This document shows positions 24,245 to 52,580 of a DNA stretch of 64,000 nt, one piece after another. The DNA is from Sutcliffiella horikoshii (lineage in GTDB: Bacteria > Bacillota > Bacilli > Bacillales > Bacillaceae_I): the NCBI RefSeq assembly GCF_002157855.1, contig NZ_CP020880.1, forward strand, positions 186,001 through 250,000, in the 5' to 3' direction. The notes under the pieces were generated by a model. That model was not told the DNA's origin. It worked only from the letters and a program-made list of their open reading frames with translations, and searched no databases. Numbering within the stretch: the stretch's first letter is position 1; each line of letters starts with the position of its first letter. The position numbers and the translations under genes were made by a program.

Positions 24245-24453
24245 TGTCCGAAGATTTCCGGATTTTGACCGAAGATTTTCCAAAGTTGACCGAAGTTTTG
24301 GCGAAAGTGACCGAAGATTTCCCTTAGTTGTCCGAACGAAATTTTGAGGTGTCCAAAGGTAGCAAAAAGTTGTCCGAAGGGATACCCTCAATTGACCGAA
24401 CCCCTTACGAATAAGGGGGGAAAGTGTCCGAAACAACGAACAAAATGACCGAA
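24245..24453. repeat. Phased intergenic array, 21-bp period, core TGWCCGAA (10 units)
   Basis: Cores (TGTCCGAA or TGACCGAA; one TGTCCAAA) start at 24245, 24266, 24287, 24308, 24329, 24350, 24371, 24393, 24425 and 24446, giving distances 21 six times, then 22, 32, 21. The 12-13 bases between cores vary. The array fills the gap between a terminator and a MerR gene. The array at 52372-52580 has the same core and the same distance series. Heptad-periodic ORFs arise on both strands because 21 bp is seven codons; I regard them as non-coding. Confidence 0.88.
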
Positions 24454-24538
24454 CGCTTTTGGAACTGCATTAAAACGTATTACTTTGCCTGTTTTTAGCG
24501 CAAAACTATCTCAAAACACACAAATTTAAAATTCCCCA

Positions 24539-24570
24539 TTGACCATGTGGTGCACCACACAGTTTAAACT
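24539..24570 (+). promoter_or_regulatory. MerR-type promoter with perfect dyad
   Basis: TTGACC (24539-24544) and TAAACT (24565-24570) flank a spacer of about 20 bp that contains the perfect palindrome GTGGTGCACCAC (24547-24558). Twenty bp upstream of the MerR gene, so autoregulation is likely. Confidence 0.65.
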
Positions 24571-24589
24571 AAACAAAGGAGGGCAAGAA

Positions 24590-24931
24590 ATGTACAAAGT
24601 CAGTGAATTTTCCGAGATGACCGGGCTCAGCAAGGAGACTCTGCGCTATTATGCGGAAGTGAAGCTGATCGAGCCCGCTTATATCGATCCGAATAACAAC
24701 TACCGATATTATGATGATGGCAGTTATTTTCTGGCCATACTTTTAGTGAAACTGAGGAGCTTTGGGTTCACCATTCAGGAGATGATTTCGGTGATGGAAG
24801 ATGAATCGTTCGAACACCTTGAAGATTTACTCATTCAAAAGAAAGAAACGATCCGCCTCCAAATAGAAGAGTTGCAACAAAAAACAGAAGAAATAGATGC
24901 CTTCTTGGCGTCAGGGAAGGAGACAAAATAA
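24590..24931 (+). CDS. Short MerR-family transcriptional regulator
   Basis: Product of 113 residues: a MerR winged helix (YKVSEFSEMTGLSKETLRYYAEVKLI) and a dimerising coiled coil (about 75-110), with no ligand-binding domain or cysteines. ATG 24590 follows AAAGGAGGGC. The stop overlaps the next ATG (TAATG), so the SRPBCC protein is translated with it and may supply ligand binding in trans. Confidence 0.85.
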   Translation: MYKVSEFSEMTGLSKETLRYYAEVKLIEPAYIDPNNNYRYYDDGSYFLAILLVKLRSFGFTIQEMISVMEDESFEHLEDLLIQKKETIRLQIEELQQKTEEIDAFLASGKETK

Positions 24932-25380
24932 TGATTCAATGGCAAGAAGAACGTGTGATACCTGTTCCTATTGAAAAAGTGTGGGAACTCTTCCTCGACA
25001 AACATATCAAAAGAACCATGCCGAAAGTGGAAGAACATACCTTAATAGAAAAAACAGAAACAGAGGTAGGTGCAAAACACCAGCAAACATATCGAGAAGG
25101 CAAGCGGGTGGAAACGTATATCGTGGAGACGCTTGCTTATGAGGACAAGCCCGATAGGAAACATAAACAAATAGCTTTTGTACTCGGAAAGGCATTTGAA
25201 ATCAATTTGTCTTTTACGCTGGAAAAGGTGGATGAGACGCATACACGCTTCATTTATGCAGGCCATAACAAAGGTGTCAACTTTGTGGGGCGGGCGATGT
25301 TGAAGCTTGGCAGTGAGAAGAGCAATAATAAAGTTGTGCAGGAGTATATGGACCGTGTCGAAGCAGAATCGATGAAATAG
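24931..25380 (+). CDS. SRPBCC (START/polyketide-cyclase-like) domain protein
   Basis: Product of 149 residues with the helix-grip pattern: an N-terminal strand with PVPIEKVWELF, a run of antiparallel strands, and a long C-terminal helix (KSNNKVVQEYMDRVEAES). The cavity normally binds small hydrophobic molecules. Coupled with the MerR gene by a one-base overlap, it may sense or sequester the inducer. The ligand is unknown. Confidence 0.75.
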   Translation: MIQWQEERVIPVPIEKVWELFLDKHIKRTMPKVEEHTLIEKTETEVGAKHQQTYREGKRVETYIVETLAYEDKPDRKHKQIAFVLGKAFEINLSFTLEKVDETHTRFIYAGHNKGVNFVGRAMLKLGSEKSNNKVVQEYMDRVEAESMK

Positions 25381-25383
25381 AAT

Positions 25384-25425
25384 GGGAGCTGACGTGATAA
25401 AAAACGCGCAGCTCCCAGTTTTTAT
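25384..25425. terminator. Terminator between SRPBCC and HAAS genes
   Basis: GGGAGCTG ... CAGCTCCC stem with TTTTTATTTT on the plus side, between convergent genes. Confidence 0.75.
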
Positions 25426-26183
25426 TTTGCAGAGGTGGATGTCCTCTTAAGCTCGAATAATAAATAAGCCCCGATTAATGCATACATGATAAGACTGCTG
25501 CTCAATAACTGGTTTTCTGCCGATAGGTCGGTAAGGGCTACCAAGTATTCCGGTACAATGTAGAAGATAGGAAGCACAATGGAAACAATCGTCTTACTCC
25601 AAATTGAAATCCCAATTAAAAACGAGATGGCCATACTTGCGACAATCAGGTTGCCGTAATAACCGAGCATAATGATCGGTGACTCGATATAATTTGGAAG
25701 GAACATTAATCCAAGGAACATGGCCATCGATAGAAAGCTCACCAAACCAAAGAAAAAGAACTCCTTTGACTTGGAAAAAGTATGACTGGCGATATGCCTG
25801 AAGGTCCCCATGTAGGCAAGGATTAAGATGATACAAACTAGAGGGTAACCAATCAGCTCCACCAGCGAATATTGAAATCCGCCAAAGACGATGTCTTTCA
25901 GAACGATGCCTGAGAATGCCCCAAGTATAATGATGGGAACATATTTAGCCCAGCCGCGTACATCAAAAGACATTTCGCCGGAGATCTGCTCCATGTATTC
26001 TTTCGGGGAGCTTCCGATGATATGCTCGACACTCTTATTCTCTTTTTCCGCTTCGTATAAATGCACTTCTAGCTCATCCGTTATCTCATCAATTTCATTT
26101 GTCTTTTTGCCGCATGAAAATAGGTAGATTCGTAAATTTTCTATGAATGTTTGGCTCTTTTTAGATAAAGGTAATTGGTTCAT
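25422..26183 (-). CDS. HAAS-domain multi-pass membrane protein
   Basis: Product of 253 residues. The N-terminal cytosolic helical HAAS domain (about 10-70; IDEITDELEVHLYEAEKENKSVEHIIGSSPKEYMEQI) is the module usually encoded beside PadR regulators, followed by six hydrophobic helices (about 80-245). It lies in one transcription unit with a PadR gene and another HAAS protein. These units usually control membrane or envelope functions; the specific job is unknown. Confidence 0.75.
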   Translation of the reverse strand: MNQLPLSKKSQTFIENLRIYLFSCGKKTNEIDEITDELEVHLYEAEKENKSVEHIIGSSPKEYMEQISGEMSFDVRGWAKYVPIIILGAFSGIVLKDIVFGGFQYSLVELIGYPLVCIILILAYMGTFRHIASHTFSKSKEFFFFGLVSFLSMAMFLGLMFLPNYIESPIIMLGYYGNLIVASMAISFLIGISIWSKTIVSIVLPIFYIVPEYLVALTDLSAENQLLSSSLIMYALIGAYLLFELKRTSTSAK

Positions 26184-26201
26184 TTGGTTTGCTCCTTTCG
26201 G

Positions 26202-26882
26202 TTAATGGGTGTGGTATGCGCGCTGAATTAATTTCCCTGTGCCAAGAAGAATGAGCGCGATAATCAGGTAAATCCACCATTCTATCAAAATTCTTGGGCC
26301 GAAATCAGGAACAAGCCAGGAGAACAATAAAATCAGCGCGAAGGAACCTCCACCAAAAAGGCCAGCTTTTAGATAGGCGCGTTTAGCTGATTTCTTTTCA
26401 CTGAAAAGGCTCGAACGAACTAAGGTGAAGATTACTTTCACTCCTAGAGCGGACACACCTAGAACAGCCAAAGCTAATACTATTAAATTCCCTATAGGAG
26501 AAGGTGCTTTTATCTCAGTAAAAAAAGGCATGATCAAGTGAACAATGGAAAGCACGAGAGCGAACCAACCTAAAGAATTACTGACCTGGGTGCTTATGAA
26601 AGGAATCACATCCCGCTTTTTATCTTTAGGAAGCCCTTCAATCAGTTCATCTGCATATGCTTTGGGGTCTGACCCTAGCAGCTCTGTTCCTGATCGCCCT
26701 TCATGTTGTGCTTCTAACATATGGTCGAGGAGGTCCATCAGTAATTCCTCGCTTTCATGTTCCGCCACTCTTAAATCCGTACGGATATATAAGAGTAAAT
26801 CCTCATACAATTTCAAATTATCATCACTCAACAGCTTCCGTTTTTCATTGTTCTCTTCAATTAATTTCTTTGTGTCTCTCAT
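26202..26882 (-). CDS. HAAS/DUF1129-type membrane protein
   Basis: Product of 226 residues: a soluble N-terminal helical part (about 1-85, ESEELLMDLLDHMLEAQHEGRS ... GSDPKAYADELI) like the neighbouring HAAS protein, then four or five membrane helices. ATG 26882 follows GAGGGGAAA; the longer in-frame start lacks a ribosome site and would overlap padR deeply. It overlaps the PadR stop by four bases (ATGA), showing coupled translation. Confidence 0.78.
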   Translation of the reverse strand: MRDTKKLIEENNEKRKLLSDDNLKLYEDLLLYIRTDLRVAEHESEELLMDLLDHMLEAQHEGRSGTELLGSDPKAYADELIEGLPKDKKRDVIPFISTQVSNSLGWFALVLSIVHLIMPFFTEIKAPSPIGNLIVLALAVLGVSALGVKVIFTLVRSSLFSEKKSAKRAYLKAGLFGGGSFALILLFSWLVPDFGPRILIEWWIYLIIALILLGTGKLIQRAYHTH

Positions 26883-27211
26883 CCGTTTTCCCCTCTTTGC
26901 AATAATTGACTTACTGGACCAGCGATCAGCATCCATTCGCTTGAAATTCGTTCAAGTTCTTCTTTTCCGGCAACGGTTAGAAAATAGTATTTTCGGTTTG
27001 GCCCGGATGCGGAAGGTCGCATCTCCCCTATGATGAATCCGTTTTTTTGAAGTCGGAGCAGAACCGGATAGATGGTGCCTTCACTGATGTCCGGTAATCC
27101 GACTTTTTGCAGCTGTTGGGAAAGTTCGTACCCATAGACTGCTTTCTCCTCGACAATTGCCATCACGCAGGCATCGAGGATTCCTTTCAATAACTGGCTT
27201 CTTGCTGCCAT
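26879..27211 (-). CDS. PadR-family transcriptional regulator
   Basis: Product of 110 residues with the typical start QLLKGILDACVMAIVEEKAVYGYELSQQL, the SEGTIYPVLLRLQKNGFI recognition helix and wing, and a short C-terminal dimer helix. ATG 27211 follows GTAGGTGA; the longer ORF reads through operator sequence. It heads a padR-HAAS-HAAS operon and faces a divergent gene across three copies of a 19-bp palindrome that is almost surely its operator. Confidence 0.9.
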   Translation of the reverse strand: MAARSQLLKGILDACVMAIVEEKAVYGYELSQQLQKVGLPDISEGTIYPVLLRLQKNGFIIGEMRPSASGPNRKYYFLTVAGKEELERISSEWMLIAGPVSQLLQRGENG

Positions 27212-27256
27212 GTGTTCACCTACTTTGGTTGTGGTAAAAAGTATTTTCGGCTCCGG

Positions 27257-27352
27257 TATCTTGTATAACAAGTTACTTAGTCGAAGTGCTGCGGCTATCT
27301 TGTATTACATGATACTCTTATTATATGCACAGCTATCTTGTATTGCAAGGTA
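27257..27352. promoter_or_regulatory. Three copies of a 19-bp palindromic operator (PadR)
   Basis: TATCTTGTATAACAAGTTA (27257-27275), TATCTTGTATTACATGATA (27296-27314) and TATCTTGTATTGCAAGGTA (27334-27352), spaced 39 and 38 bp. All are near-palindromes around TTGTATNACAA, in the divergent promoter region of the PadR operon and the gene at 27423. PadR proteins bind such ATNNTGTA/TACANNAT-like dyads. Confidence 0.75.
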
Positions 27353-27422
27353 TAATTGGAAAAATTTTAAAGGACTCTCTGCGGTGGATGTAGAATTTCT
27401 AAAACATAAGGAGAGGATTACA

Positions 27423-28100
27423 ATGACTACACAAACTAGCACCATCCATACATATGAAGAGGCCGTTGCAGTGATTAAAGAAGTGGGCTTGCTTCCGCTT
27501 GCGCCGTTATTCGAGGATTACCCATCGCTTGGAGGCATGACGCCGAAAGAGGCATGGCATTCTGACACAGAGAAAGATCCGTGGATTTGGAGGACGCTTT
27601 TTGCTGCAGATGGAGTGGCGGTTTATGGAAAGTTCATTAAGAAAAAAGCGATGTTCATCTCAAAGGATTTACTTCCACTGATGCTTGTTGCACTTGCAAG
27701 TACAGAAACCGTGGAGAAGCGATACGAAAAAGGAGAAGTGTCCCGTGAAGCTTTGTCCCTTTTCAGCCTCATTTCGGAGAACCAAGGAATTGATACGAGA
27801 GTACTGCGAGCAAAAGCTGGAATGAAGGAAAAAGAAAAGAAGAAAGCCTTTGACCAGGCATTACTGGAGCTGCAAGGGAGTCTTGATATTGTGGTATCGG
27901 GGACAAAAGAAAAGCAGGACGAAAATGGCGAAAAGAATGGGTGGAGCAGTACGTCTTATGAAACGATGAAGCATTGGTGTGATAGAAATTATATAGAAGT
28001 GCCGGAATTGAAAAAGGAAGAGGCAACCGAAAAGCTGATGAATCATTTTGAAAGTTTTACATCAGAAGCGACGATGAAGAAGTTGAAGAGAGTTTTTTAG
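27423..28100 (+). CDS. Putative AlkZ-related protein
   Basis: Soluble protein of 225 residues. The segment PKEAWHSDTEKDPWIWRTLFAADGVAVYGKFIKKKAMFISK resembles short proteins annotated as AlkZ-related (winged-helix DNA glycosylase-like), but only part of that fold is covered and no catalytic residue can be assigned, so the DNA-repair link is tentative. ATG 27423 follows AAGGAGAGG. It is divergent from the PadR operon and shares its operators, so PadR may regulate it too. Confidence 0.5.
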   Translation: MTTQTSTIHTYEEAVAVIKEVGLLPLAPLFEDYPSLGGMTPKEAWHSDTEKDPWIWRTLFAADGVAVYGKFIKKKAMFISKDLLPLMLVALASTETVEKRYEKGEVSREALSLFSLISENQGIDTRVLRAKAGMKEKEKKKAFDQALLELQGSLDIVVSGTKEKQDENGEKNGWSSTSYETMKHWCDRNYIEVPELKKEEATEKLMNHFESFTSEATMKKLKRVF

Positions 28101-28116
28101 TCAAACGTTTGTTCAA
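28101..28116. repeat. Solitary copy of the array-G core (CAAACGTTTG)
   Basis: TCAAACGTTTGTTCAA directly abuts the preceding stop codon and is identical over 16 bases to the last unit of the array at 40448-40630. It lies 64 bp upstream of the histidine kinase start. Confidence 0.6.
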
Positions 28117-28179
28117 AATGAGAAAAGTGCAATTCATGGAACAACAAGAATTCACATAAAATAAAGGCGGGAATGATTT

Positions 28180-29313
28180 ATGGGTAGCAGGGTTAGTTCA
28201 CTTTGGATAAAACTTTGTTTTGTGTGCGCGATTCTTTTAATCATGCCAATCTATTATTCTCTGACAGGCACGCTGTTGGCTGCCTATCTTTTGGCGGCGG
28301 GAATGTATTTGGGGCTTTATTTTTCCATGCCGATTTGGAAAGAGAAGTGGATTGCGTATTTTTTGGCAACTGGGGCCGTAGTGTTGATGCAACACTTTAT
28401 TCTGACGCCGTTTGATGTGTTGCCTTGGCTGTTGGTCTATTTTTTATTGGTGGAAGGAATGCAATCTTCCGTTACCAAGCAGGCTGTCCTCACGACAGTG
28501 GCTGTTCTTTTGCCTGTTATGTTCACCCTTAGCGTTCTGGCAGTTTCTGATTTATTTTTCTATCATCTATTTCTTTTCATCATGTTGATCGGGGTGGGGG
28601 CGCTCATTCATCGATACTACCGTGATAATGAGAAGTTTGATAGAGAGTGGAAAAGTTTGTTGGTGGAGTATCGTGTGTTAAAAAGGCAGGTCCTTGAAAA
28701 TGAGGAGGTTGCCAGAGTCGAGGAGAGGAACCGGATTGCTAGGGATATTCATGATTCTGTGGGGCACCAGCTGACAGCACTCATGATGCAGTTGGCAGTG
28801 GCGGAACAGGCTGCCGGGGAAGAGAAGGTTGCTTTCATTGTGAAGCAGTCCAAACAGTTGGCCAGAGAAAGCCTGGATGGGATGCGAAAAGCAGTGAAGG
28901 CCTTGCAGGGGGAAGAGGAGCAGGGGATCTCTTCTGTGATTCATTTGATTAGAAAGCTGGAAGCGGAAAGTCAGATGAGGGTGCAGTTGACGACTAAAAC
29001 TGGCGTGCTATCGCAGCCACTTAGCAATGAGCAGAACATTGTTTTGTACCGATTTGTACAGGAAGGGCTGACCAATGCGATGAGGCATGGTAGCTCGAAG
29101 GAAATCTCCGTTACACTTGAAATTATCGGAGAACACAGTTTTCAGGTGAAAGTGGAAAATAAAGTGGAGGTTACAGGTCCTGTGGAAGAAGGATTTGGAC
29201 TGCAAAATATGCGAAAGCGAATGGAAGGCTTGAACGGACGGATGGAGCGGGAAGTCACCGAGGGATATTTTACAGTGAAGGGAATTTTCCCTTTGAAGGG
29301 AGTTACATATTAA
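28180..29313 (+). CDS. Sensor histidine kinase, NarL/LiaS type
   Basis: Product of 377 residues with five or six N-terminal membrane helices (about 10-145) and no large outside domain, so it probably senses within the membrane. A coiled linker is followed by a HisKA_3 dimer domain with phospho-acceptor His191 in RIARDIHDSVGHQLTAL, and an HATPase domain (EGLTNAMRHG N-box, GFGLQNMRKRMEGLNG G-box). The next gene is the cognate response regulator, and an ABC exporter follows, an arrangement like B. subtilis yvfRSTU. Confidence 0.9.
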   Translation: MGSRVSSLWIKLCFVCAILLIMPIYYSLTGTLLAAYLLAAGMYLGLYFSMPIWKEKWIAYFLATGAVVLMQHFILTPFDVLPWLLVYFLLVEGMQSSVTKQAVLTTVAVLLPVMFTLSVLAVSDLFFYHLFLFIMLIGVGALIHRYYRDNEKFDREWKSLLVEYRVLKRQVLENEEVARVEERNRIARDIHDSVGHQLTALMMQLAVAEQAAGEEKVAFIVKQSKQLARESLDGMRKAVKALQGEEEQGISSVIHLIRKLEAESQMRVQLTTKTGVLSQPLSNEQNIVLYRFVQEGLTNAMRHGSSKEISVTLEIIGEHSFQVKVENKVEVTGPVEEGFGLQNMRKRMEGLNGRMEREVTEGYFTVKGIFPLKGVTY

Positions 29314-29955
29314 GTGATTAATATATTGCTAGCAGAGGACCAGGCATTGGTTCGGCAAGGAATAAAAATGATGATTGAGCAGCATCCTTCGTTTCGGGTT
29401 GTGGCCGAGGTCGCAAACGGGAAGGAAGCAGTCGATGCTTATGAAAAGCACCTGGTGGACTTGGTGCTGATGGATGTACGGATGCCTGTCATGACGGGAA
29501 TTGAAGCGACGAAGGTCATCAGGCAGCGTGACCCGAAAGCGAAGGTGTTGATCTTGACGACTTTTGCAGATGATGAATATGCAATGGAGGCGTTGAGGCT
29601 TGGGGCATTAGGCTATCTATTGAAAGATGCGGATGCGGCGAACCTTTTGTCCTCGATCGAGAGTTGTTTGAATGGAGGGATTTCCATCGATGCCTCGGTA
29701 GCGGGAAAGGTGGTTCCGAGGTTGATTAATCGGCCGGGGCAAGCACCCTCTAGTATGGAGATGGTCGAGTTGACCAGCCGGGAGCGGACCATTTTACAGC
29801 TTGTGGGTGAGGGGAAAAATAATCAGGAGATTGCAGAAGCCTTGCATCTGTCTATTGGAACGGTGAAGAATCATGTGACGGTTATTTTACAAAAGCTTGG
29901 GTTGAGGGACCGGACACAGCTTGCGATTTTTGCGATTCGGAATGGGGTTGTGTAG
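29314..29955 (+). CDS. NarL-family response regulator
   Basis: Product of 213 residues: receiver domain (acidic pocket ED at 8-9, phospho-acceptor Asp54 in LVLMDVRMP, Lys near 104) and a LuxR-type helix-turn-helix (about 150-205, ELTSRERTILQLVGEGKNNQEIAEALHLSIGTVKNHV). The GTG start immediately follows the kinase stop, so the two are coupled. Likely target: the ABC exporter genes 700 bp downstream. Confidence 0.93.
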   Translation: MINILLAEDQALVRQGIKMMIEQHPSFRVVAEVANGKEAVDAYEKHLVDLVLMDVRMPVMTGIEATKVIRQRDPKAKVLILTTFADDEYAMEALRLGALGYLLKDADAANLLSSIESCLNGGISIDASVAGKVVPRLINRPGQAPSSMEMVELTSRERTILQLVGEGKNNQEIAEALHLSIGTVKNHVTVILQKLGLRDRTQLAIFAIRNGVV

Positions 29956-30025
29956 GCGGGTTTTATAGTTTAATTCCAATATTATCCACCTGAAGACTTG
30001 AAGCCCTTTAAAAATGGAGCGTTTA

Positions 30026-30441
30026 GTCAAATAGAGGGGCTCTATACGCTTGAAGCAGAAGTAAGACTGGGAGTTCGGTCAAATAGAAGGGTTCTATACG
30101 CCCGAAGCGGAAGTGAGACTGGGAGTTCGGTCAAATAGAGGGGCTCTATACGCCCGAAGCGGAAGTGAGACTGGGAGTTCGGTCAAATAGAAGGGCTCTA
30201 TACGCCCGAAGCGGAAGTAAAACAAGGTGTTCGGTCAAATAGAGGGGCTCTATACGCCTGAAGCAGATGTGAGACTGGGAGTTCGGTCAAATAGAAGGGT
30301 TCTATACGCCCGAAGCGGAAGTAAAACAAGGTGTTCGGTCAAATAGGCGGGGTCAATACGCCCGAAGCAGAAGTAACACTGCACGTTCCGTCTAATAGAG
30401 TGCTCGATGCAGCTCGAACAGAACAAAAAGCATCTAAAAGT
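30026..30441. repeat. Tandem array, 52-bp period (8 units)
   Basis: Units beginning GTCAAATAGA start at 30026, 30078, 30130, 30182, 30234, 30286, 30338 and (degenerate, GTCTAATAGA) 30390, exactly 52 bp apart. Each unit has a second conserved part, TATACGCCCGAAGCGGAAGT. Unlike the 20/21-bp arrays nearly the whole unit is conserved, with two sub-types of tail (GAGACTGGGAGTTCG and AAAACAAGGTGTTCG). It separates the two-component genes from the ABC exporter genes and makes up most of this 690-bp gap. Confidence 0.92.
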
Positions 30442-30497
30442 TGGTGAGATTGCCGCAGGGTATGAAGCAACAGGGGACTTTAATGAAGCATGCTTGA

Positions 30498-30525
30498 AGC
30501 TCGAGAAATCCATTCGGGCTTTTTT
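30498..30525 (+). terminator. Terminator downstream of the 52-bp array
   Basis: AGCTCGA GAAATCCAT TCGGGCT stem followed by six T, 125 bp before the ABC ATPase gene. Confidence 0.6.
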
Positions 30526-30649
30526 ACGTCCAAACTCTCCACCACAAAAGTGACTAAAGTCACCCCCACTCTCACAAACTAATGACCTTCTTCAGGTTAA
30601 CTTCCCTCGAGCCGATAGTATAGTAGAAGTAACAAAGGGGGCAACGAAC

Positions 30650-31582
30650 ATGCTAGAAGCCATTCAACTAACCAAAACGTTCAAAAATACGCAAGCCGTT
30701 AAAGGCGTCAACTTATACTTAGAAAAAGGGGAGACGGTGGGGCTGCTCGGGCCAAATGGAGCCGGCAAGTCCACCACGATCTCCATGCTTTCTTCCCTTG
30801 TCCGCCCGACAAGCGGGGATGTGCTCCTCAAAGGGGAAAGTGTTAAAGATCAGCCGCAGCACCTCAGAGAAATCTTGGGTGTCGTGCCGCAGGAGATCGC
30901 GGTATTCCCGGAACTGACTGCCTATGAAAATATGAGCTTTTTCGGGAAGATTTACAAACTGCCAAAAAGCGAATTAAAACAGAGAATCGAAGAAGTCCTG
31001 ACGTTGGTAGGCCTTGAGCAGCGTCAAAAAGAACCGGTCAAGCAATTTTCCGGAGGGATGAAGCGCCGACTCAATATCGCAGTGGCACTGCTACACAGGC
31101 CAGAAATCTTAATCATGGATGAACCGACTGTCGGAATCGACCCGCAATCTAGAAATTACATCTTAGAGACGGTGAAAAAGCTGAACGAAGAAAAAGGGAT
31201 TACGGTTCTTTACACAAGTCATTACATGGAGGAAGTGGAGTTTCTTTGTCAGCGCCTCTATATTATGGACCGCGGCGAAGTAATTGCCTCCGGGACAAAG
31301 GATGAAGTGAAAAATATTCTTTCCTCCGAGCATACTATCGAGGTCGAAGTGGAAAAGGTCAACCCGGCATTTATCGAAAAGCTGGAGGGCGTTCCAGCCA
31401 TTTCATCCGTAACCTCGCTTGATAAGAAAATTATCTTGCTTGCTCCAAAGAAAATTAACCTGCTAGAAGATGTCTTTGATGCGGCAAAGCAAACAGAAAG
31501 TCCGCTTAAAGGCATACAAATAAAAGCGCCGACACTTGAGGATGTCTTTTTGCATCTGACAGGTCGCAAGCTTCGGGATTAG
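30650..31582 (+). CDS. ABC-2 exporter ATP-binding protein (DrrA/YvfR type)
   Basis: Product of 310 residues. Walker A GPNGAGKST (about 35-43), Q-loop VVPQE, signature FSGGMKRRL, Walker B ILIMDEPTVGID, switch His in TSHYMEE, then a C-terminal accessory domain of about 80 residues typical of DrrA-like exporters. It powers the two permeases that follow. With the upstream two-component pair it forms a likely drug or lipid efflux unit. ATG 30650 follows AAAGGGGGC. Confidence 0.92.
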   Translation: MLEAIQLTKTFKNTQAVKGVNLYLEKGETVGLLGPNGAGKSTTISMLSSLVRPTSGDVLLKGESVKDQPQHLREILGVVPQEIAVFPELTAYENMSFFGKIYKLPKSELKQRIEEVLTLVGLEQRQKEPVKQFSGGMKRRLNIAVALLHRPEILIMDEPTVGIDPQSRNYILETVKKLNEEKGITVLYTSHYMEEVEFLCQRLYIMDRGEVIASGTKDEVKNILSSEHTIEVEVEKVNPAFIEKLEGVPAISSVTSLDKKIILLAPKKINLLEDVFDAAKQTESPLKGIQIKAPTLEDVFLHLTGRKLRD

Positions 31583-31594
31583 GGGGAATCTAAC

Positions 31595-32857
31595 GTGTTA
31601 CGTGCGTTTATCAAAAAAGACCTCCTTCACTTGCTGCGGGATAAAAAAGAAGTCCTGATCTTGCTTGCGATGCCGTTTGTTTTAATAACGATTCTTGGGT
31701 TTGCATTAGGGGGGAACTCTGGCGACGAAGTAACTCTGAACGCTCAGGTGGCGGTCCTTGACCAAGGAGATCTCCAAACAGAGTTAGAGCAATTCGACGA
31801 ATGGATGCAATCCGAAAATATTCCTGACCAAGGCAGAGCACCAATCCTTGAAGCGGCCGAACAGACCTCCTTGCCAGAGTTGCTCGTTGATACGGTAATG
31901 AAAGAGGAACTTCAAAATTTGCTGAATGTAAAAGAAGAAACAGATCTGGATGCGGCTCTTGCCAATGACGAATACGCTGGGGTTCTGCAATTTTCAGAGG
32001 GGCTTCGCTTGGAGACTTGGAAAGGGCAATTTTTCAACCAGGAAACGACAAAAGAATTGCAGCTCTACTTAAACGAAGATAAGGGGCTAGAAGCCAGTAT
32101 CATCTCAGATGTGGTAGAAGATTTTACCAATCAGATACGTTTGCAAACGGTGTTGACACAAGAGGCTCAACAAACGAATCAGGCGTTCCCTAGTTTCGAG
32201 AATGTAGCGGAGGTCACAGGGGAAACAGTAACGGTGGACGGAAAAGTGCCAGTGGATTCCTTTGGTTATTTTGCGGTGGGGATGAGTACGATGTTTGCTT
32301 TATATGTCGTATCCTTTGTAGCTGGCTATGCTTATTATGAAAAAGCCACATTTGTGTATGACCGAATACTTTTAACCAATACGAACCCTTGGATGTACGC
32401 GTCAAGTAAGTGGTTTTCAGCAGTCCTCATTTGCTTCCTTCAATTGTGTGCGTTATACGGTTTGGCCGCTCTGATTTATCAGGTGATATGGCCGGATCTA
32501 CTAGGATTCCTTGCCATCACGCTCTTCTTCAGTTTTGTGGTCGGTTCGATGGCAGTGCTAATTACCGCCTTGAATTACCGCTTTGAAACGCAACGGGTAT
32601 CCACGATGTTTTCCGGATTCCTTGTCAGTGTGTTTGCTTTCTTGGGCGGAAGCTTTGTCCCTTGGAATGAAGTTTCCGACACGATGTTTACAATCGCATC
32701 TTTCACGCCAAACGGTGCCGCCCTGCAAGGCTACCTGAAAATATTAAGTGGCGGAGAGCTTGCAACAGTTACTGGTAACCTTTTCCGCCTAGCAGTGGTG
32801 AGTATCGGCCTTCTCCTGATCGCCATCCCTATTTTTCCTAAAAGGAGGTTGATTTAA
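31595..32857 (+). CDS. ABC-2 type permease, subunit 1
   Basis: Product of 420 residues: one N-terminal helix (KEVLILLAMPFVLITILGFALG), a large outside domain of about 190 residues, then five helices with the ABC2_membrane pattern at the end (FLVSVFAFLGGSFVPWNEVSD). Start at GTG 31595. Its stop TAA (32855-32857) immediately precedes the proposed start of the second permease. Confidence 0.88.
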   Translation: MLRAFIKKDLLHLLRDKKEVLILLAMPFVLITILGFALGGNSGDEVTLNAQVAVLDQGDLQTELEQFDEWMQSENIPDQGRAPILEAAEQTSLPELLVDTVMKEELQNLLNVKEETDLDAALANDEYAGVLQFSEGLRLETWKGQFFNQETTKELQLYLNEDKGLEASIISDVVEDFTNQIRLQTVLTQEAQQTNQAFPSFENVAEVTGETVTVDGKVPVDSFGYFAVGMSTMFALYVVSFVAGYAYYEKATFVYDRILLTNTNPWMYASSKWFSAVLICFLQLCALYGLAALIYQVIWPDLLGFLAITLFFSFVVGSMAVLITALNYRFETQRVSTMFSGFLVSVFAFLGGSFVPWNEVSDTMFTIASFTPNGAALQGYLKILSGGELATVTGNLFRLAVVSIGLLLIAIPIFPKRRLI

Positions 32858-36836: not shown

Positions 36837-36887
36837 ATAGATTTCTAGGGTGTTCGCGAGGACCTACTTGTGCGTTGAGGTCGCTAT

Positions 36888-37004
36888 TTCTTGATATATT
36901 GCTAGATTTCTTGATATATCTTGAATTTTCTTGATAAGTGGGTAGATTTTCTTGATATAATCCAATTTTTCTTGATATATCATCAAATTTCTTGATATCT
37001 ATTA
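36888..37004. repeat. Phased intergenic array, 20-bp period, core TTTCTTGATATAT (6 units)
   Basis: TTGATA occurs at 36891, 36911, 36931, 36952, 36972 and 36992, distances 20, 20, 21, 20, 20, each preceded by TTTC and mostly followed by TAT. The bases between vary. It lies between the chemoreceptor terminator and the ECF sigma promoter and accounts for most of this 380-bp gap. Confidence 0.85.
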
Positions 37005-39010: not shown

Positions 39011-39121
39011 CAATGGATATATCCGTTTTACAATGGATAAAACGATTTTACAATGGATATATCGAATTTACGGTTGATATATTTATTTTACAATGGATAA
39101 ATGGTCCGTTTGAATGGATAT
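39011..39121. repeat. Phased intergenic array, 20-bp period, core CAATGGATAWA (6 units)
   Basis: Cores at 39011, 39031, 39051, 39071 (diverged CGGTTGATAT), 39091 and 39112: 20 bp apart with one 21. Read on the minus strand the unit is TTTTATCCATTGTAAAATCG, close to the TTTTATCC-N9-TCG unit of the array at 4046-4135, so the two are related and in opposite orientation. The following 220 bases up to the LysM gene show no other feature I can name. Confidence 0.85.
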
Positions 39122-40447: not shown

Positions 40448-40630
40448 CAAACGTTTGTTTAAAAAATAATTAACTGGCTACCAATAGAATTAAACCATCC
40501 ATCAAACGTTTGTTTAAAGTCCCCAATCCGTTGCCCTGCATGCTCCAACGGCTATTAATCGAACGTTTGTATAAACATAAAACTCTCGGCAATCCATCCC
40601 ACCACCGCAATTAATCAAACGTTTGTTCAA
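40448..40630. repeat. Array of CAAACGTTTG palindromes, about 56-bp period (4 units)
   Basis: CAAACGTTTG (one CGAACGTTTG) begins at 40448, 40503, 40560 and 40616, distances 55, 57, 56. The wider core is ATCAAACGTTTGTTTAAA; only the inner 10 bases are palindromic. It lies between convergent genes (LysM and metH), where promoters are not expected. An identical 16-base copy occurs alone at 28101-28116. Confidence 0.85.
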
Positions 40631-46000: not shown

Positions 46001-47186
46001 GATATACCCTCCGTTGTTCTTGGTTACCGCTTGCTGCTGTAATGGTATGTTGAAATGCCTGTTCAAAATCTTCTATTAGATCCTCCGCACTTTCAAGTCC
46101 TACCGACAGGCGGAGTAGGGAGTTTGTGATGCCACGTTTTAATCGTTCTGATTCCGGCATCGCTGCATGAGACATTTTCGCCGGGAAGGAAAGGATGGAT
46201 TCAACCGCCCCTAAACTCACAGCAAAAACCGGGATCTCGACCTTGCCGACAAACTTCCGGAGATCCTCTTCGCTGTGCAGTTCGAAAGAAAGAACAGCAC
46301 CAGGTCCCTGTGCCTGCCTGTGTTGAAGGGTGAAGCCAGGGTGTGTCGTCAATCCTGGAAAATAAACCTTTTTAACGGCAGGATGTTTTTCTAGGTAACT
46401 GGCAATTTTATAAGCGGACTTTTGGGACTGCTCCAGCCTTACATGTAACGTTTTGAGCCCTCTTAAGACGAGCCATGCATCTTGGACACCAAGCACCGCG
46501 CCGAAGGAATTTTGCAAAAAGGCTAAACGGTCGGCAAGCTCAGGATCCTTTGCCACCGCAAGCCCTGCCACGACATCACTGTGTCCCGACAGGAACTTCG
46601 TTGCGCTGTGCAGGACAAGGTCGGCACCAAGCTCCAGCGGCTTTTGCAAGGAGGGCGTCAAGAAGGTGTTGTCGACGAAAGTCCAAGCTCCGATTGTTTT
46701 GGCGAGAGTAGACACAGCCGTGATGTCCGTTACTTTTAACAATGGATTGGATGGTGTTTCTACGTAAAGCAGTTTGGTGTTGGCCTGGATGGCCGCCTTT
46801 ACTTTTCCCAAATCTGTCATATCCACAAACGTATGCGCCACGCCGTAACGGGTAAGAACTTCAGACACCATTCGGTAAGTTCCACCGTACACGTCTTCTG
46901 AAATCAATACGTGATCGCCTTGTGATAGAAGGAGGAAAGCAGTCGAGATCGCAGCCATACCAGATGAAAAAGCAAAGCCTCGCGTTCCTTCTTCTAAGTG
47001 GGCAATGGTTTCTTCGAGTGCTTCCCGGGTCGGATTGGCAGAGCGTCCATAGTCATATTTGCCAAAGGAATCGATATCAGGCTGATGAAAAGTGGAGGCA
47101 TGTTGGATGGGCACGCTCACCGCTCCATTACTTTTATCAAACTTATGGCGGTTGTGTAACAGCTTCGTTTGAAAAGAATGGCTCAT
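45984..47186 (-). CDS. metC: Cystathionine beta-lyase (MetC), PLP enzyme
   Basis: Splits cystathionine to homocysteine, ammonia and pyruvate. It has 400 residues of the Cys/Met-metabolism PLP family: [16 protein letters not shown] at the N-terminus, [14 protein letters not shown], and the PLP Lys in [20 protein letters not shown]. Second gene of the operon, overlapping metI by four bases. MetI and MetC are similar enzymes; the order metI-metC matches B. subtilis. Confidence 0.92.
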
Positions 47187-48301
47187 GATAGGACCTCCTT
47201 TTGGATGGAAGCAGCTTTCAGCGCCGCCTCTAAATCTTGTATCAAGTCTTCAGCGTCTTCAATGCCGACCGAAAAACGTAACAATCTGTTGCATACACCG
47301 GTCTCTATGCGAATTTTTTCCGGAATGTCCGCATGCGTTTGCGTGGCAGGGTATGTGATGAAGCTTTCCACGCCGCCAAGGCTTTCGGCAAAAGTAATCA
47401 GGTTCAAGTTTTGAAGCAGCGGATTGACCCATGCCTCGTCTTGAATGCGGAAGGAGAGCATGCCGCCTCTTCCAGGGTACAGGACGTCTGTGATGGAATC
47501 ATGTTGAGCTAAGTATGCAGCGATTCGCTTTGCATTATTTTCATGCCTTTCCATGCGAAGGGACAAGGTTTTCATACCGCGGATCAATAGCCAGGAATCG
47601 AATGGGCTGAGTACCGCACCTGCTGCATTATGGTGAAGCGATAGCGATTCACAAAGCTCCACGCCTTTTGCGACAATCAGCCCTGCCAGCACATCATTAT
47701 GCCCGCCAAGATACTTGGTCGCACTGTGAATGACGATGTCCGCACCTAATTTTATGGGATTTAATAGAACAGGAGTGTAAAACGTATTATCACAGATCAG
47801 TAGGAGTCCGTGCGCTTTCGCGAGCTCAGAGACTGCTTCTAAGTCTGTTTCTACCATCAGGGGATTGGTTGGAGTCTCTACAAAGATAGCTTGTGTTTGT
47901 GAAGTAATGGCTTTTTCGATTTCTGAAAGGTCGGTCGTGTCCACATAGCTACAACACAGTCCCCATTTTTTATAGCCTTCTTCAAAAAGGCGGTATGTGC
48001 CGCCATATAAATCCTTACACACGATAAGATGGTCACCGGACTTAAAAAGGGAAAGGATAGTTAGAATCGCCGCCATGCCGGAGCTGCAGGCAAACCCTTG
48101 GTCGCCGCTTTCAAGCTCCGCAATCGCCTTTTCCAACACATGTCGAGTGGGATTGCCGGTTCTTGTATAGTCATATCCTGTTGATTGCCCAATACCTTCG
48201 TGTCGATAGGCAGTGGAAAAATAAACAGGCGGATTGACAGTTCCAGTGGCAGTTTCTGAGCGATTTCCGATTTGTGCAAGCTTTGTTTCCGTTTTATACA
48301 T
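47183..48301 (-). CDS. metI: Cystathionine gamma-synthase / O-acyl-homoserine (thiol) lyase (MetI)
   Basis: First gene of the operon, joining an O-acyl-homoserine with cysteine (or sulfide). It has 372 residues and the same PLP fold as its neighbour: YDYTRTGNPTRHVLEKAIAELE, SSGMAAILTILSLF and the PLP Lys in DIVIHSATKYLGGHNDVLAG. ATG 48301 follows ATAGGAGGCC. Controlled by the SAM riboswitch just upstream. Confidence 0.92.
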   Translation of the reverse strand: MYKTETKLAQIGNRSETATGTVNPPVYFSTAYRHEGIGQSTGYDYTRTGNPTRHVLEKAIAELESGDQGFACSSGMAAILTILSLFKSGDHLIVCKDLYGGTYRLFEEGYKKWGLCCSYVDTTDLSEIEKAITSQTQAIFVETPTNPLMVETDLEAVSELAKAHGLLLICDNTFYTPVLLNPIKLGADIVIHSATKYLGGHNDVLAGLIVAKGVELCESLSLHHNAAGAVLSPFDSWLLIRGMKTLSLRMERHENNAKRIAAYLAQHDSITDVLYPGRGGMLSFRIQDEAWVNPLLQNLNLITFAESLGGVESFITYPATQTHADIPEKIRIETGVCNRLLRFSVGIEDAEDLIQDLEAALKAASIQKEVLS

Positions 48302-48369
48302 GAATGGGCCTCCTATATGGTAAGTGACAATCGTTTCTTCCAGAGGGCAGGGGCTTTAATGCTTTATCG

Positions 48370-48404
48370 GATAAAAAGAAAAAGCCTTCTATAAGAAGAA
48401 GACT
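48370..48404 (-). terminator. S-box terminator hairpin
   Basis: Minus strand AAAAGTCTTCTTCTTATAGAAGGCTTTTTCTTTTT: a stem with poly-T between the SAM aptamer and metI, the switching element of the riboswitch. Confidence 0.8.
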
Positions 48405-48417
48405 TTTATCGAAAAGT

Positions 48418-48546
48418 TCATTCTTCTCATCTCTGCAAGCATCACAGCTTGCTGGAATTAGCACCTTTTCAACGTCCGTTCTAACGGGCGCTGCTGGTTG
48501 CTGAGGTGTCTTCGGGCCATTCCCTCAACCTCTCTGGATAAGAAAG
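48418..48546 (-). promoter_or_regulatory. SAM-I riboswitch (S box) of the methionine operon
   Basis: On the minus strand the S-box elements occur in order: CTTATCCAGAGAGGTTGAGGGA, TGGCCCGAAGACACCTCAGCAACC, the P3 arm CGCCCGTTAGAACGG, AAGGTGCTAATTCCAGCAAG and the closing GAGATGAGAAG. SAM binding ends transcription early, so the operon is expressed when methionine is scarce. Aptamer confidence is very high. Confidence 0.96.
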
Positions 48547-48756
48547 TTCACTATTTAATTATCTGAACAATTTAATTATTTTACTAATTTACAACAGGTC
48601 AGAGTGAAATGCAATGTTTTTTTCTGGATGAATTAATTTTATGCGGTGAAGGAGTGGGGTAGAAGTGAAGTACCAGAAGAATTTTTTTGTCATAAAATGG
48701 TCAATCCCAAAAGAGGAAATTAAATGGAGCATGTTATATAATGTTAACTATAAAGT

Positions 48757-48774
48757 ATGTGAAACTTTTCACTA
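48757..48774. promoter_or_regulatory. Rex- or Fnr-type operator upstream of cydDC
   Basis: ATGTGAA-ACTT-TTCACTA matches the Rex consensus TTGTGAA-N4-TTCACAA with one mismatch per arm; as TGTGA-N6-TCACT it is also close to an Fnr site. It lies 52-69 bp upstream of cydD. In B. subtilis Rex represses the cyd operon when NADH is low. Confidence 0.65.
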
Positions 48775-48825
48775 ACTAAACTATACAATCCATTTTTCAT
48801 TAATAGAAAAGAGGGATTTAACATA

Positions 48826-50559
48826 ATGACTGATTTAAAAACGATCGCTAAATCGCATAGAGGCACAAGGGTGACGCTGATCTTGATTGCCATCCTGACA
48901 GGGGCAACGGTTATCGGGCAGGCGTATTTTTTCGTCACTATCGTAGATCGAGTCTTCCTAAGGGGCCACACTTTTCAAGAAATCCTGCCATTCCTGGGTG
49001 GCCTCCTGGTAGTATTGGCTGCACGAGCGGCCTTGACCTATTGGAGCGGCATTACTGGAGTGAAGCTTGCTGCCAAAGTAAAGCGAGATTTCCGGATTGC
49101 GTTGCTGCAGAAATTTTCCAACAGTCCGGTTCAAGCTTCCCTGAAAGGTCAATCCGGCCAAAAGGTGAGCGTGATGATGGATGCGGTGGATGAAATCGAT
49201 CCGTATTTCAGCAGGTATGTGCCACAAGTCATGCAATCGAGCATCATACCAATCATGATCTTGATTGCGGCATTCAGCCAGCATGTGAATACAGGTTTGA
49301 TAATACTAATCACAGCGCCGTTCATTCCCATTTTCATGATTGTGGTAGGCTTGAAAACTAAGAAAAAATCAGAAGAGCAGATGGATAAACTGAATGCTTT
49401 TTCCGGAACGTTTCTTGATACGTTGCAAGGGCTCACGACGTTAAAGCTTTTCGGTCGCTCAGCCAAGCAACAGAAGACGATTGAAAACAGCAGCTTAAGC
49501 TTCCGTGATGCAACAATGGAAGTGTTGAGAATTGCATTTCTGTCTTCGTTGATGCTGGAATTCATTTCGATGCTTGCCATTGGTTTGATCGCACTTGAAG
49601 TGGGCTTGCAACTTGTTGTTTTTGAAAATGTTACGTTCTTTACTGCTTTCTTCGTATTGGTATTGGCACCTGAGTTCTACCTGTATCTGAAGGAACTTGG
49701 AAGCGCCTTTCATACGGGACGCGGAAGCATGGGAGCAGCGAAAAAGGTAACAGATGAGCTGGCCGAGGAGGAAAATCCTATCGAATGGGGAGACGCTTCA
49801 TTTCAAAAGGTGCATGGTCCTCCTGCATTACAATTGAACAACCTTGGCTTTCGTTATGGAGATCAAGGGTTTACCATCGAAAATATATCAGTGGATATAC
49901 CGCCATATACGCAGCTTGCTTTAATTGGGCGTAGTGGAGCAGGAAAATCAACACTGCTCAATCTGATGGCAGGATTGATTCGTCCGTCAGAAGGGGAAGT
50001 GCTGGTGGACGGAAAGCCGTTATATGAATACGAAGAAAAAACGTGGTTTGACCAAGTCAGCTATATTTCGCAAAATCCGTATCTTTTTTCAGGAACAATT
50101 GCCGATAACATTGCGATTGGCGGGAAGGCGGAAGCTACCCAAGAAGAGATAAGGGATGCTGCGGAAAAAGCAGGTATCCTATCGTTAATTGAATCTTTAC
50201 CAGAAGGTTTTGAAACGAAGATCGGAGAAGGTGGGAGAGGTTTATCTGGCGGTGAGAAGCAGCGATTAGCGTTGGCGCGGGCCTTTTTGAAAAAGCCGTC
50301 GGTCATCCTGTTTGACGAGCCAACAACAGGTCTGGATCTGCAGACGGAGCGTATCTTGCAGGCTTCTATGAAGGAGCTGGCGAAAACGTCGACGGTTATT
50401 ACGGTTGCTCACAGATTGCATACGATTAAACAGGCAGATACCATTTTACTGCTGGATTCCGGGAGATTGGTCGCCCAAGGGAAGCATGACGAGTTGGTCG
50501 AAGCAGTACCGGCTTACCGTGAAATGGTGTCTGTCCAGCAAGGAGGGAGCGCAGGATGA
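48826..50559 (+). CDS. cydD: Thiol reductant ABC exporter subunit CydD
   Basis: Half-transporter of 577 residues: six-helix membrane domain (about 15-310) and an ATPase domain with Walker A GRSGAGKST, Q-loop YISQNPYLF, signature LSGGEKQRLALARAF, Walker B VILFDEPTTGLD. With CydC it exports glutathione or cysteine and is needed to assemble cytochrome bd. No cydA or cydB is adjacent, unlike B. subtilis cydABCD, so the oxidase genes must be elsewhere or lost. ATG 48826 follows GAGGGATTT. Confidence 0.92.
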   Translation: MTDLKTIAKSHRGTRVTLILIAILTGATVIGQAYFFVTIVDRVFLRGHTFQEILPFLGGLLVVLAARAALTYWSGITGVKLAAKVKRDFRIALLQKFSNSPVQASLKGQSGQKVSVMMDAVDEIDPYFSRYVPQVMQSSIIPIMILIAAFSQHVNTGLIILITAPFIPIFMIVVGLKTKKKSEEQMDKLNAFSGTFLDTLQGLTTLKLFGRSAKQQKTIENSSLSFRDATMEVLRIAFLSSLMLEFISMLAIGLIALEVGLQLVVFENVTFFTAFFVLVLAPEFYLYLKELGSAFHTGRGSMGAAKKVTDELAEEENPIEWGDASFQKVHGPPALQLNNLGFRYGDQGFTIENISVDIPPYTQLALIGRSGAGKSTLLNLMAGLIRPSEGEVLVDGKPLYEYEEKTWFDQVSYISQNPYLFSGTIADNIAIGGKAEATQEEIRDAAEKAGILSLIESLPEGFETKIGEGGRGLSGGEKQRLALARAFLKKPSVILFDEPTTGLDLQTERILQASMKELAKTSTVITVAHRLHTIKQADTILLLDSGRLVAQGKHDELVEAVPAYREMVSVQQGGSAG

Positions 50560-52277
50560 GAGAATTAGCACATGTTGTAAAGCTGGTCATGATGGAGAAG
50601 AAGGACATACTCCTCTCCATCTTGCTCGGGTTCTCAGCGGGGATTACGGCAGTGGGACTGTTTGCCTCTAGTGGATATCTCATTTCCAAAGCGGCACTGG
50701 CTCCGCCGATCTATACCTTGACCGTGATGATTGCGGTCCTGAAGCTCTTCGGTTTCGCGCGGGCATTTGTTCGTTACGGAGAACGACTATATTCGCACAG
50801 GGCAACTTTTACGATTTTAAGTAATCTACGTGTCGCTTTTTATAAAAAAATTGAGCCGCTTGCGCCGCAAATTTTCCAGAAATACAGAAGCGGTGATTTG
50901 CTTGCACGAATTGTGGGGGATGTAGAAAGCTTGCAAAACTTCTTTCTACGTGTGTTCTACCCGCCGGTTGTGCTGGTGCTCGTCTTTTTAAGTACGATAT
51001 TTTTCATTTCCTTTTTCTCTATTTATCTGGCATTGGTAATGTTCGTCGGATTAATTTTGACAGGGTTTGTGGTGCCAGCGTACTTTGCGCTCGGGCAACG
51101 CCGATTGCAAAGTCGTGTCAGAGAAGAGAGAGGGGCGCTATCGACAGAGGTGACGGAACTGTTTTATGGGTTCCGCGACTTGAAGATCTATCAGCAACTC
51201 GATGTAAAAGAGAAGTTGCTTGCCGATGCTGCCGGTTCTTATGTTGGGGAGCAGGAGCGAGAAGGAAAACAGGCGATGTTCAATCAATCGATGAACACGT
51301 TTATTACGTTGCTTGTGTCATGGGCCTTGCTTGCGCTGGGGGCATACCTAACTGTGGAGGGCCAGTTTGAAGGATTGTTCCTGGCAATGCTAGTGATGAT
51401 TTCCTTGACGGTGTTTGAAAATGCTGCGCCGATGGCTGTTTTTCCGAATCATTATGAGGAGAGCAGACGGGCTGCGGAAAGATTGGATGAAGTGGTCGAC
51501 GGGGAGCCGGTTGTAGGTGTGGCGTCTTCTGAAACAGTTGAATTACCTGTTGGAACGGCGTTTTCTTTCGAAATGAAGGATGTCCACTTCCGCTATCCTG
51601 GAGAATCCCGTTTGACGCTGGATGGGGTGAATATTAGTTTGCCTGCTGGATCGAAGACGGCGATTGTTGGGCCTAGTGGGTCTGGGAAATCGACGTTGTT
51701 GCAGTTGTTGTTAAAAATTTATGAAACTGAGGATGGGAATGTCTCGTTGGATGCATGGGATTATGCCTCTGTTGATCAGGAAGACTTGTGGGGCGTGGCA
51801 AACGTCGTCCTGCAGGAAAATCACTTTTTCTACGGCACGGTAAGGGAGAATCTCGCTCTTGCTAAAGATGGATTGAGCGATGAAGAAATGGTAGAGGCAT
51901 TGAGCGCGGTGAAGCTTGACGGGTTTTCCTTGGATGATGCGGTGCTCGAAAAAGGGGAGAACCTTTCCGGCGGGGAGAAGCAGCGCCTTGCTATCGCGCG
52001 TGCATTGTTGAGGTCAGAACGTTTGTGGCTCTTGGATGAACCGACTTCCTCCGTGGATGCTGTAACGGAAGCTGCAATTTTTGAAAAACTTTTTGAGGCG
52101 GCGGCAGAGGATACCTTGGTGCTGGTGAGTCACCGTTTGACGGGTCTCGAGAAGATGGATCAGATTGTTGTCATGGAGAATGGTCGTGTTGTGGAAGCAG
52201 GCACATTTGACGAGTTGATTAGGATGAAGGGGTACTTCTATGAGATGAAAGAGATAGAGAAGAGTGTGTTTATGTAG
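50556..52277 (+). CDS. cydC: Thiol reductant ABC exporter subunit CydC
   Basis: Partner half-transporter of 573 residues: membrane domain (about 1-320) and ATPase domain with GPSGSGKST, VVLQENHFF, LSGGEKQRLAIARALL and LWLLDEPTSSVD. Starts four bases before the end of cydD (ATGA overlap). The two form a heterodimer in the cytoplasmic membrane. Confidence 0.92.
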   Translation: MRELAHVVKLVMMEKKDILLSILLGFSAGITAVGLFASSGYLISKAALAPPIYTLTVMIAVLKLFGFARAFVRYGERLYSHRATFTILSNLRVAFYKKIEPLAPQIFQKYRSGDLLARIVGDVESLQNFFLRVFYPPVVLVLVFLSTIFFISFFSIYLALVMFVGLILTGFVVPAYFALGQRRLQSRVREERGALSTEVTELFYGFRDLKIYQQLDVKEKLLADAAGSYVGEQEREGKQAMFNQSMNTFITLLVSWALLALGAYLTVEGQFEGLFLAMLVMISLTVFENAAPMAVFPNHYEESRRAAERLDEVVDGEPVVGVASSETVELPVGTAFSFEMKDVHFRYPGESRLTLDGVNISLPAGSKTAIVGPSGSGKSTLLQLLLKIYETEDGNVSLDAWDYASVDQEDLWGVANVVLQENHFFYGTVRENLALAKDGLSDEEMVEALSAVKLDGFSLDDAVLEKGENLSGGEKQRLAIARALLRSERLWLLDEPTSSVDAVTEAAIFEKLFEAAAEDTLVLVSHRLTGLEKMDQIVVMENGRVVEAGTFDELIRMKGYFYEMKEIEKSVFM

Positions 52278-52301
52278 GTTAGGGGTTTTAGCTTTGGCTA
52301 G

Positions 52302-52346
52302 GCCGTCTGGGGGAGAGATAGTTGGTCCCTCTGGCGGCTTTTTTCT
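52302..52346 (+). terminator. Terminator of cydDC
   Basis: Imperfect stem GCCGTCTGGGGGAG ... GGTCCCTCTGGCGGC followed by six T. Confidence 0.65.
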
Positions 52347-52371
52347 TAGATGATAGGGGTGCTGGATCAAT

Positions 52372-52580
52372 TGTCCGAAGTTTTGGCGAAGTTGACCGAA
52401 GATTTCTCAGAGTTGACCAAAGAATTGAGAAAGTTGACCGAAGTTTTGAGTCAAATGACCGAACGCATTTTTCAAATGACCGAAGGCCCAAAATATTTGA
52501 CCGAACATCCGCCTGTAAATGTCCGAACCCCCACCAAAATAGGTAATGAAATGTCTGAACCAATGGGAAAGTTGTCCGAA
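52372..52580. repeat. Phased intergenic array, 21-bp period, core TGWCCGAA (10 units), sister of 24245-24453
   Basis: Cores start at 52372, 52393, 52414, 52435, 52456, 52477, 52498, 52520, 52552 and 52573; distances 21 six times, then 22, 32, 21, exactly the series of the array at 24245. Variants are TGACCAAA (third) and TGTCTGAA (ninth). Spacer sequence is mostly different from the sister array. It accounts for about 210 of the nearly 600 bases in this gap; 52600-52740 holds nothing I can name. Confidence 0.9.

Follow-up and report, generated by a model that had tools for sequence, protein, structure and literature searches.

Two widely separated places in the chromosome of Sutcliffiella horikoshii carry rows of a short word, TGWCCGAA, set at the same unequal distances, and the question they raise is what holds this spacing in place while the bases between the words drift. 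The stretch analysed, called the window below, comprises 64,000 nucleotides (contig NZ_CP020880.1, positions 186,001 to 250,000 of the forward strand), and its positions are counted from its first letter. The answer proposed here is that such arrays are probably rows of binding sites for a sequence-specific protein, one for each family of arrays, which would bind cooperatively along one helical face and play a structural role. The two arrays, assigned to family A, are as follows.

24245 to 24453, + strand: family A array 1, 209 bp, ten TGWCCGAA-type cores starting at 24245, 24266, 24287, 24308, 24329, 24350, 24371, 24393, 24425 and 24446
52372 to 52580, + strand: family A array 2, 209 bp, ten cores at offsets identical to those of array 1

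The core offsets in both arrays are 0, 21, 42, 63, 84, 105, 126, 148, 180 and 201 (six steps of 21, then 22, 32 and 21), so an earlier note on this DNA was exactly right in stating that all nine core-to-core distances are equal, the odd 22 and 32 steps included. Its ten TGWCCGAA cores per array were also found in their places, but the exact word occurs in only 9/10 cores of array 1, the sixth being TGTCCAAA, and in 8/10 of array 2, where the third is TGACCAAA and the ninth TGTCTGAA, each with one mismatch. The two arrays agree at 72/80 core positions and at 66/129 spacer positions, shuffled spacers giving a mean of 33.8 and a maximum of 53 in 2000 trials; the spacers have therefore diverged and yet remain related, which is read as common descent with unequal drift. 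The whole window contains 25 exact cores (both strands, all arrays) against 4.2 expected and a maximum of 9 in 100 shuffles, and five mononucleotide shuffles never placed more than two cores on the shared offsets.

Orthologous loci were compared in relatives (G and L labels denote the genomes and loci compared, G000 being the genome of the window). Array 1 has orthologs in G006, where it is interrupted by an insertion sequence (IS), and in G007, G008, G010, G012, G014 and G015; array 2 has them at L068, L069, L070, L073 and the IS-interrupted L074. Site 1, the array 1 locus upstream of a MerR gene, was aligned in six species, and site 2, the array 2 locus, in five, with core positions taken from the window, a choice that gives a slight advantage to intact cores. 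Pairwise differences at site 1 amount to 50/1160 (4.3%) in cores and 370/1870 (19.8%) in spacers, with 99/714 (13.9%) in the upstream and 233/895 in the downstream flank. The corresponding values at site 2 are 52/800 (6.5%), 316/1286 (25%), 128/476 and 220/554. Seven species were aligned at the site of a window array belonging to another family:

36887 to 36998, + strand: family D array, core TTTCTTGATA, steps of 20, 20, 21, 20 and 20 bp

There the differences are 50/1260 in cores, 204/1071 in spacers and 39-45% in the flanks. Random draws of array columns were never as conserved as the cores (0/2000 at each of sites 1 and 2, where the third core base was left out, and 0/1000 at the family D site). 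Insertions and deletions (indels) within the 209-bp arrays number one each at sites 1 and 2 (a whole 21-bp unit; a single base), against 9 and 10 events, respectively, in about 120 columns upstream; the downstream counts are 6 (site 1, 330 columns) and 10 (site 2, 130 columns). At the family D site the 111 array columns are free of indels, and the upstream and downstream flanks have 17 (138 columns) and 2 (122 columns), respectively. Substitutions and indels thus show that both core and spacing are constrained at all three sites. About 195 extra bases directly follow array 1 in G014, G012 and G015 (L180, L182 and L183), and the other species are without them.

Neither of the two outcomes that, according to the earlier note, would speak against its interpretation was observed, namely spacers as conserved as cores or a random spacing in further copies. 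Spacers are less conserved both between arrays 1 and 2 and at the orthologous sites, and a scan of the genome and its relatives for the core pattern revealed a dispersed family whose additional copies retain the steps. In total, 47 core pairs with the 21-bp spacing were counted in G000 (reversed control 0), and the pair is present in 14/18 genomes of the taxonomic family, with 9 to 138 pairs per genome in eleven members of the genus Sutcliffiella, one in G004 and two in G005. The sole pair of G004 sits in what reads as a coding repeat; the near-absence in G005, where two places read as decayed or truncated, could be due to loss or to a change of core spelling (a dialect, see below). G001, a member of a sister genus, has 69 pairs with different spacers. 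In an order-wide draw the pair was found in 23/397 genomes, and outside the family 9 genomes match, versus 7 matching the reversed control. One genome of another family, G160 (L063, L064), alone stands out with 65 TGTCCGAA pairs, and its drawn genus-mates have none. The sister genus g2 (L060, L061) has TGACCGAA at 21 bp; the long, near-identical tandem array of L061, with different spacers, looks like a recent tandem expansion. Array 1 had no match in plasmid and phage collections (blastn, E 0.01), and on this ground a phage or plasmid origin was rejected. A three-core pattern in five viral contigs was also set aside: in all five, on inspection, it consists of short near-identical tandem repeats unlike the arrays, and for the three contigs with open reading frames (ORFs) listed the repeats lie inside ORFs in two.

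The architecture was read in 57 arrays of four or more cores, of which G000 contributes 17 and its relatives 40. The span is 206-212 bp in 47/57 (9/17 in G000 and 38/40 in relatives, the latter having been picked as BLAST hits to array 1, which biases them towards full copies). With span so fixed and spacers so variable, simple repeat slippage does not account for the arrays, as the earlier note had argued. Ten-core copies have, with few exceptions, six steps of 21, then 21 or 22, 31 or 32, and 21 bp, and some copies carry an extra core one helical turn away (10-11 bp). Steps lie at most 1.5 bp off a multiple of 10.5 in 102/104 cases in G000 and 348/351 in relatives, counts that are not independent, the copies having common ancestry. 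The first core begins TGTCC in 47/47 full copies, and the next three begin TGACC in 44, 38 and 37. Although 15/18 loci of G000 lie before 2.14 Mb from the origin, this skew is given no weight because the distribution in G016 is not lopsided.

A single family had been noticed previously; in fact, several families with different cores use the step of 20-21 bp. A scan assuming neither core nor period, run on the window, on 80 named loci and on five further ones, returned 30 non-coding arrays, which are not independent, since family A sites shared by several species are counted among them; 22 have a period of 20, 21 or 22 bp and 4 of 51-52 bp. The window holds four more arrays of 20-21 bp with other cores, family D among them, plus one 52-bp array bearing the family A word.

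4046 to 4133, + strand: family B array, core TTTTATCCRCG, step 20 bp
39011 to 39120, + strand: family E array, core AATGGATA, step 20-21 bp
56866 to 56960, + strand: family C array, core GGCACGAACT, step about 21 bp
30026 to 30362, - strand: array with a 52-bp period (five helical turns), unit carrying TTTGACCGAAC, six exact cores within 30074-30341

Family C (GGCACGAAC, 21 bp) was detected in 13/16 genus genomes, and its zero count in G012 could reflect loss or dialect. Family D (TTTCTTGATA) is present in 9/16, its places being listed at 20 or 21 bp though 19-22 was allowed, and words of the family E core adjoin the family D site in relatives. At some sites the same gap holds a different 20-21 bp array in other species (L076, G013 and, by eye, G011). 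These scans establish dispersal over many intergenic sites and several families with different cores and the same 20-21 bp step. As to longer periods, L017:6458-6670 is a 52-bp-period array whose unit differs from that of the window, and similar arrays of 51-52 bp occur in L108, L134 and L140. Four AACGTTT words, 55-57 bp apart, lie between convergent genes at window positions 40450-40626, outside the helical pattern. All arrays of family C listed for G000, G009 and G016 follow the direction of replication, if the terminus lies opposite dnaA; 2/4 loci of this family in G013 do not.

The core spelling is not the same in all lineages. At the family D site of G010 an array is in place and its core is mostly TTTCATGATA, which ruled out loss of family D in this genome. 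Among the 16 genus genomes, TTTCATGATA pairs number 12 in G010, 14 in G016, one in G006 and zero in the other 13, G000 included; TTTCTTGATA pairs number 15 in G000, none in G010, one in G016 and 4 in G006. A tree of one gene places G010 and G016 as sisters with a support of 0.965, G016 being represented by 355 bases only. Family A has a comparable shift between lineages: the fraction of A at its third core base is 0.56-0.65 in six species, 0.35 in G010, 0.17 in G006 (from 5 arrays) and 0.04 in G016 (from 3 arrays). These counts show a lineage-wide re-spelling of single core bases; the change of one family D core base in G010 and G016 is nearly genome-wide and lends support to a core read in trans. 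Since the spacers stay array-specific, the best explanation would be a trans-acting DNA-binding protein for each family.

The core is also recognised by a mobile element of 1419 bp with HTH_Tnp_1 and rve domains, of which 17 copies are present in 5/16 genomes.

L055-L058, L074 and L233-L249: copies of the IS3-family element

It lies two bases past a core or near-core at 13/16 readable sites, in one orientation throughout (nine TGWCCGAA, three TGWCCAAA and one TATCCAAA). Two more copies adjoin a core in the opposite orientation, and the remaining exception is a variant copy in G011. A 4-bp duplication, AANN, was found in 4/5 copies with both junctions known. Such core-specific insertion adds support to the view that the core may be read in trans. 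Gaps of about 1.5 kb in G006 and G008, considered as transposon ends flanking a transposase, are actually IS3-family elements inserted in arrays. A second IS3-family element lies within an array, between cores, at L059:1990-3400, and a stretch of the G000 array L021 resembles, by eye, the right end of that second element, seemingly as a remnant.

The genes around the two family A arrays of the window are listed below.

23731 to 24141, + strand: gene upstream of array 1, 136 amino acids, no Pfam match
24590 to 24931, + strand: MerR-type regulator downstream of array 1
50556 to 52277, + strand: ABC transporter gene upstream of array 2, 573 amino acids, the query for orthologous loci
52866 to 54584, + strand: ABC transporter gene downstream of array 2

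Twenty neighbours of G000 arrays were scanned and proved mixed, with no regulon (EF-Tu, ATP sulfurylase, Asp23 and a short-chain dehydrogenase/reductase are among them), and no Rep/Par protein was found among 21 neighbours scanned, a subset of all array neighbours. By a crude ORF call, the gaps holding the 57 arrays (the 52-bp row left out) are tandem in 30 cases, convergent in 20, divergent in 4 and unresolved in 3. A separate count within G000 gave 9 tandem, 6 convergent and 2 divergent for array-bearing gaps, and 38, 6 and 14, respectively, for array-free gaps. The orientation of the arrays is not fixed. Mixed neighbours, unfixed orientation, frequent convergent gaps and rare divergent ones support the proposed explanation.

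According to the proposed explanation, each array (ten sites in family A) would bind one sequence-specific DNA-binding protein at sites separated mostly by two helical turns and occasionally by one, three or five, which would place the bound molecules on the same face of the DNA and let them cooperate. Each family would have its dedicated trans-acting protein, co-evolving with its core, and the function would be local chromosome structure (a boundary, a tether or a roadblock past gene 3' ends), not control of one regulon. Of the selection on cores and phase suggested previously, the constraint on cores and the scarcity of indels relative to upstream flanks stood up, whereas the bound protein and the helical phase are what we infer from them. 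Several points weigh against this explanation, the bias of the relatives' arrays towards full copies and the common ancestry of the in-phase steps among them. The upstream flank of site 1 is less diverged than its spacers are (13.9 vs 19.8%), and the indel contrast rests mostly on the upstream side at two of the three sites, the downstream flanks having fewer indels. The mean step of the window family D array, 20.2 bp, drifts relative to 10.5, and G006 has both family D spellings. Recognition of the core by an IS transposase is in itself no proof of a host protein, and the binding protein was not found, no systematic search for one having been made. Finally, arrays are missing in G009 at site 1, in G005 and G006 at site 2 (L071 and L072 are without array 2) and in G000 and G006 at site 3, hence no single array is essential. 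Site 3 lies in the window.

58126 to 58133, no strand: site 3, where a family A array is missing; it is present in L069 and L073, with a remnant in L038 (G005)

The arrays might instead be miniature mobile elements, similar to miniature inverted-repeat transposable elements (MITEs) or BOX, that spread in the past and owe their spacing to descent only. Dispersed copies do share the full architecture and unit-specific spacers, copy number varies among species, and IS3-family elements land in arrays. This origin is nevertheless unlikely as the whole explanation: at fixed sites cores differ 4-5 times less than spacers, and this present constraint is left unexplained, though past dispersal by transposition may also hold. 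In aligned copies, examined by eye, neither terminal inverted repeats nor target-site duplications were seen, nor was any insertion clearly new; the three presence/absence sites examined, including the one at about 58130 in the window, read as deletions, so that they offer no clean insertion to judge. Gene conversion between arrays could likewise keep cores alike without selection, and the lineage-wide single-base dialects resemble homogenisation. Conversion tracts would, however, take the spacers of 10-13 bp along, and constraint is seen at single orthologous sites. Because spacers stay array-specific while cores change, short-tract homogenisation is a poor explanation and an altered reader of the core a better one, which makes concerted evolution very improbable.

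Ordinary transcription factor sites regulating adjacent genes would also consist of conserved, operator-like words, and MerR and PadR regulators adjoin two arrays; with mixed functions among the twenty scanned neighbours, 20/57 arrays between convergent and 4/57 between divergent genes, and no fixed orientation, such a role seems quite unlikely. Extremely improbable, in our view, is a property intrinsic to the sequence, be it RNA structure, a heptad-repeat peptide or bent DNA. Folding z-scores against shuffles are -0.89 and -0.13 for the two strands of array 1 and +1.28 for the + strand of array 2, and neither array has an Rfam match, so an RNA element was rejected for them, no covariation test having been run; the only Rfam match in the window is an S-adenosylmethionine (SAM) riboswitch (RF00162) at 48424-48544 on the - strand. 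Seven codons make up a step of 21 bp, and the resulting frame resembles LTEDFEK heptads, but 40/47 arrays have in-frame stops and the frame is lost at steps of 20, 22 and 32 bp, for which reasons the coding reading was rejected. Repeats of 21 bp could add up curvature, and the family E array alone reaches a z of 2.29, the other four of the five further window arrays giving -0.18 to 1.22; in a wedge model, family A falls below its shuffles (mean z -0.52, above 2 in 0/47), and bent DNA was rejected for it.

A broader explanation may be ventured, as a tentative and less than even conjecture: phased operator arrays might form a general class in Bacillaceae chromosomes, with several coexisting families, each having its own fast-evolving protein. 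They would mark boundaries or tethering points between transcription units, and their cores would be re-spelled genome-wide between sister lineages, possibly under pressure from parasites such as the core-targeting IS. If this is true, a large bacterial group has a layer of chromosome-bound arrays that had gone undescribed, and its sequence specificity shifts from one related species to another, unusual behaviour for a factor that has tens of sites. The arrays would then offer a comparative system for finding the protein and for learning how all the sites of a binding word come to be rewritten in a genome, and the IS, with its preference for one site, can serve as a natural probe of the core.

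No description of such arrays came up in literature searches; several known systems can be compared with them. Plasmid iterons and direct-repeat centromeres (parC, tubC) have a conserved core and a variable spacer at about two turns, are bound on one face, and are single plasmid loci beside their own rep or par gene. The arrays resemble them in the conserved core at about two-turn spacing and the single orientation, and differ in occupying tens of intergenic chromosomal sites. The homogeneous unit and variable copy number of minisatellites or variable-number tandem repeats (VNTRs) do not describe them, the L061 arrays with their look of recent expansion notwithstanding; nor do CRISPR features, the arrays having an 8-bp core, a 13-bp spacer and no cas gene among the neighbours scanned.

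REP/BIME sequences are dispersed intergenic repeats into which IS elements, including the IS3 family, are reported to insert, ISPsy8 always at one point (PMC1525189). This targeting is shared by the present arrays; REP is palindromic, whereas the arrays are non-palindromic direct repeats with helical steps, and the two family A arrays of the window fold no better than shuffles. BOX, RUP and SPRITE of Streptococcus pneumoniae likewise form many dispersed copies in a Bacillota genome and are interpreted as parasitic and with extensive secondary structure (PMC3049150); the window arrays are without structure by folding and Rfam, and the constraint is on the core only. The heptamer TAACTGA of Beggiatoaceae is repeated mostly just before putative start codons and was proposed as a post-transcriptional site (PMC4679880); in both systems a short word is directly repeated in intergenic DNA, abundantly and in many sets, beside genes without a common function, but the arrays here have steps of 20-21 bp and variable spacers. 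The KfrA operator of plasmid RA3 comprises five 9-bp repeats at one promoter and is, as proposed for the present arrays, a row of direct repeats bound by one DNA-binding protein (PMC7783346).

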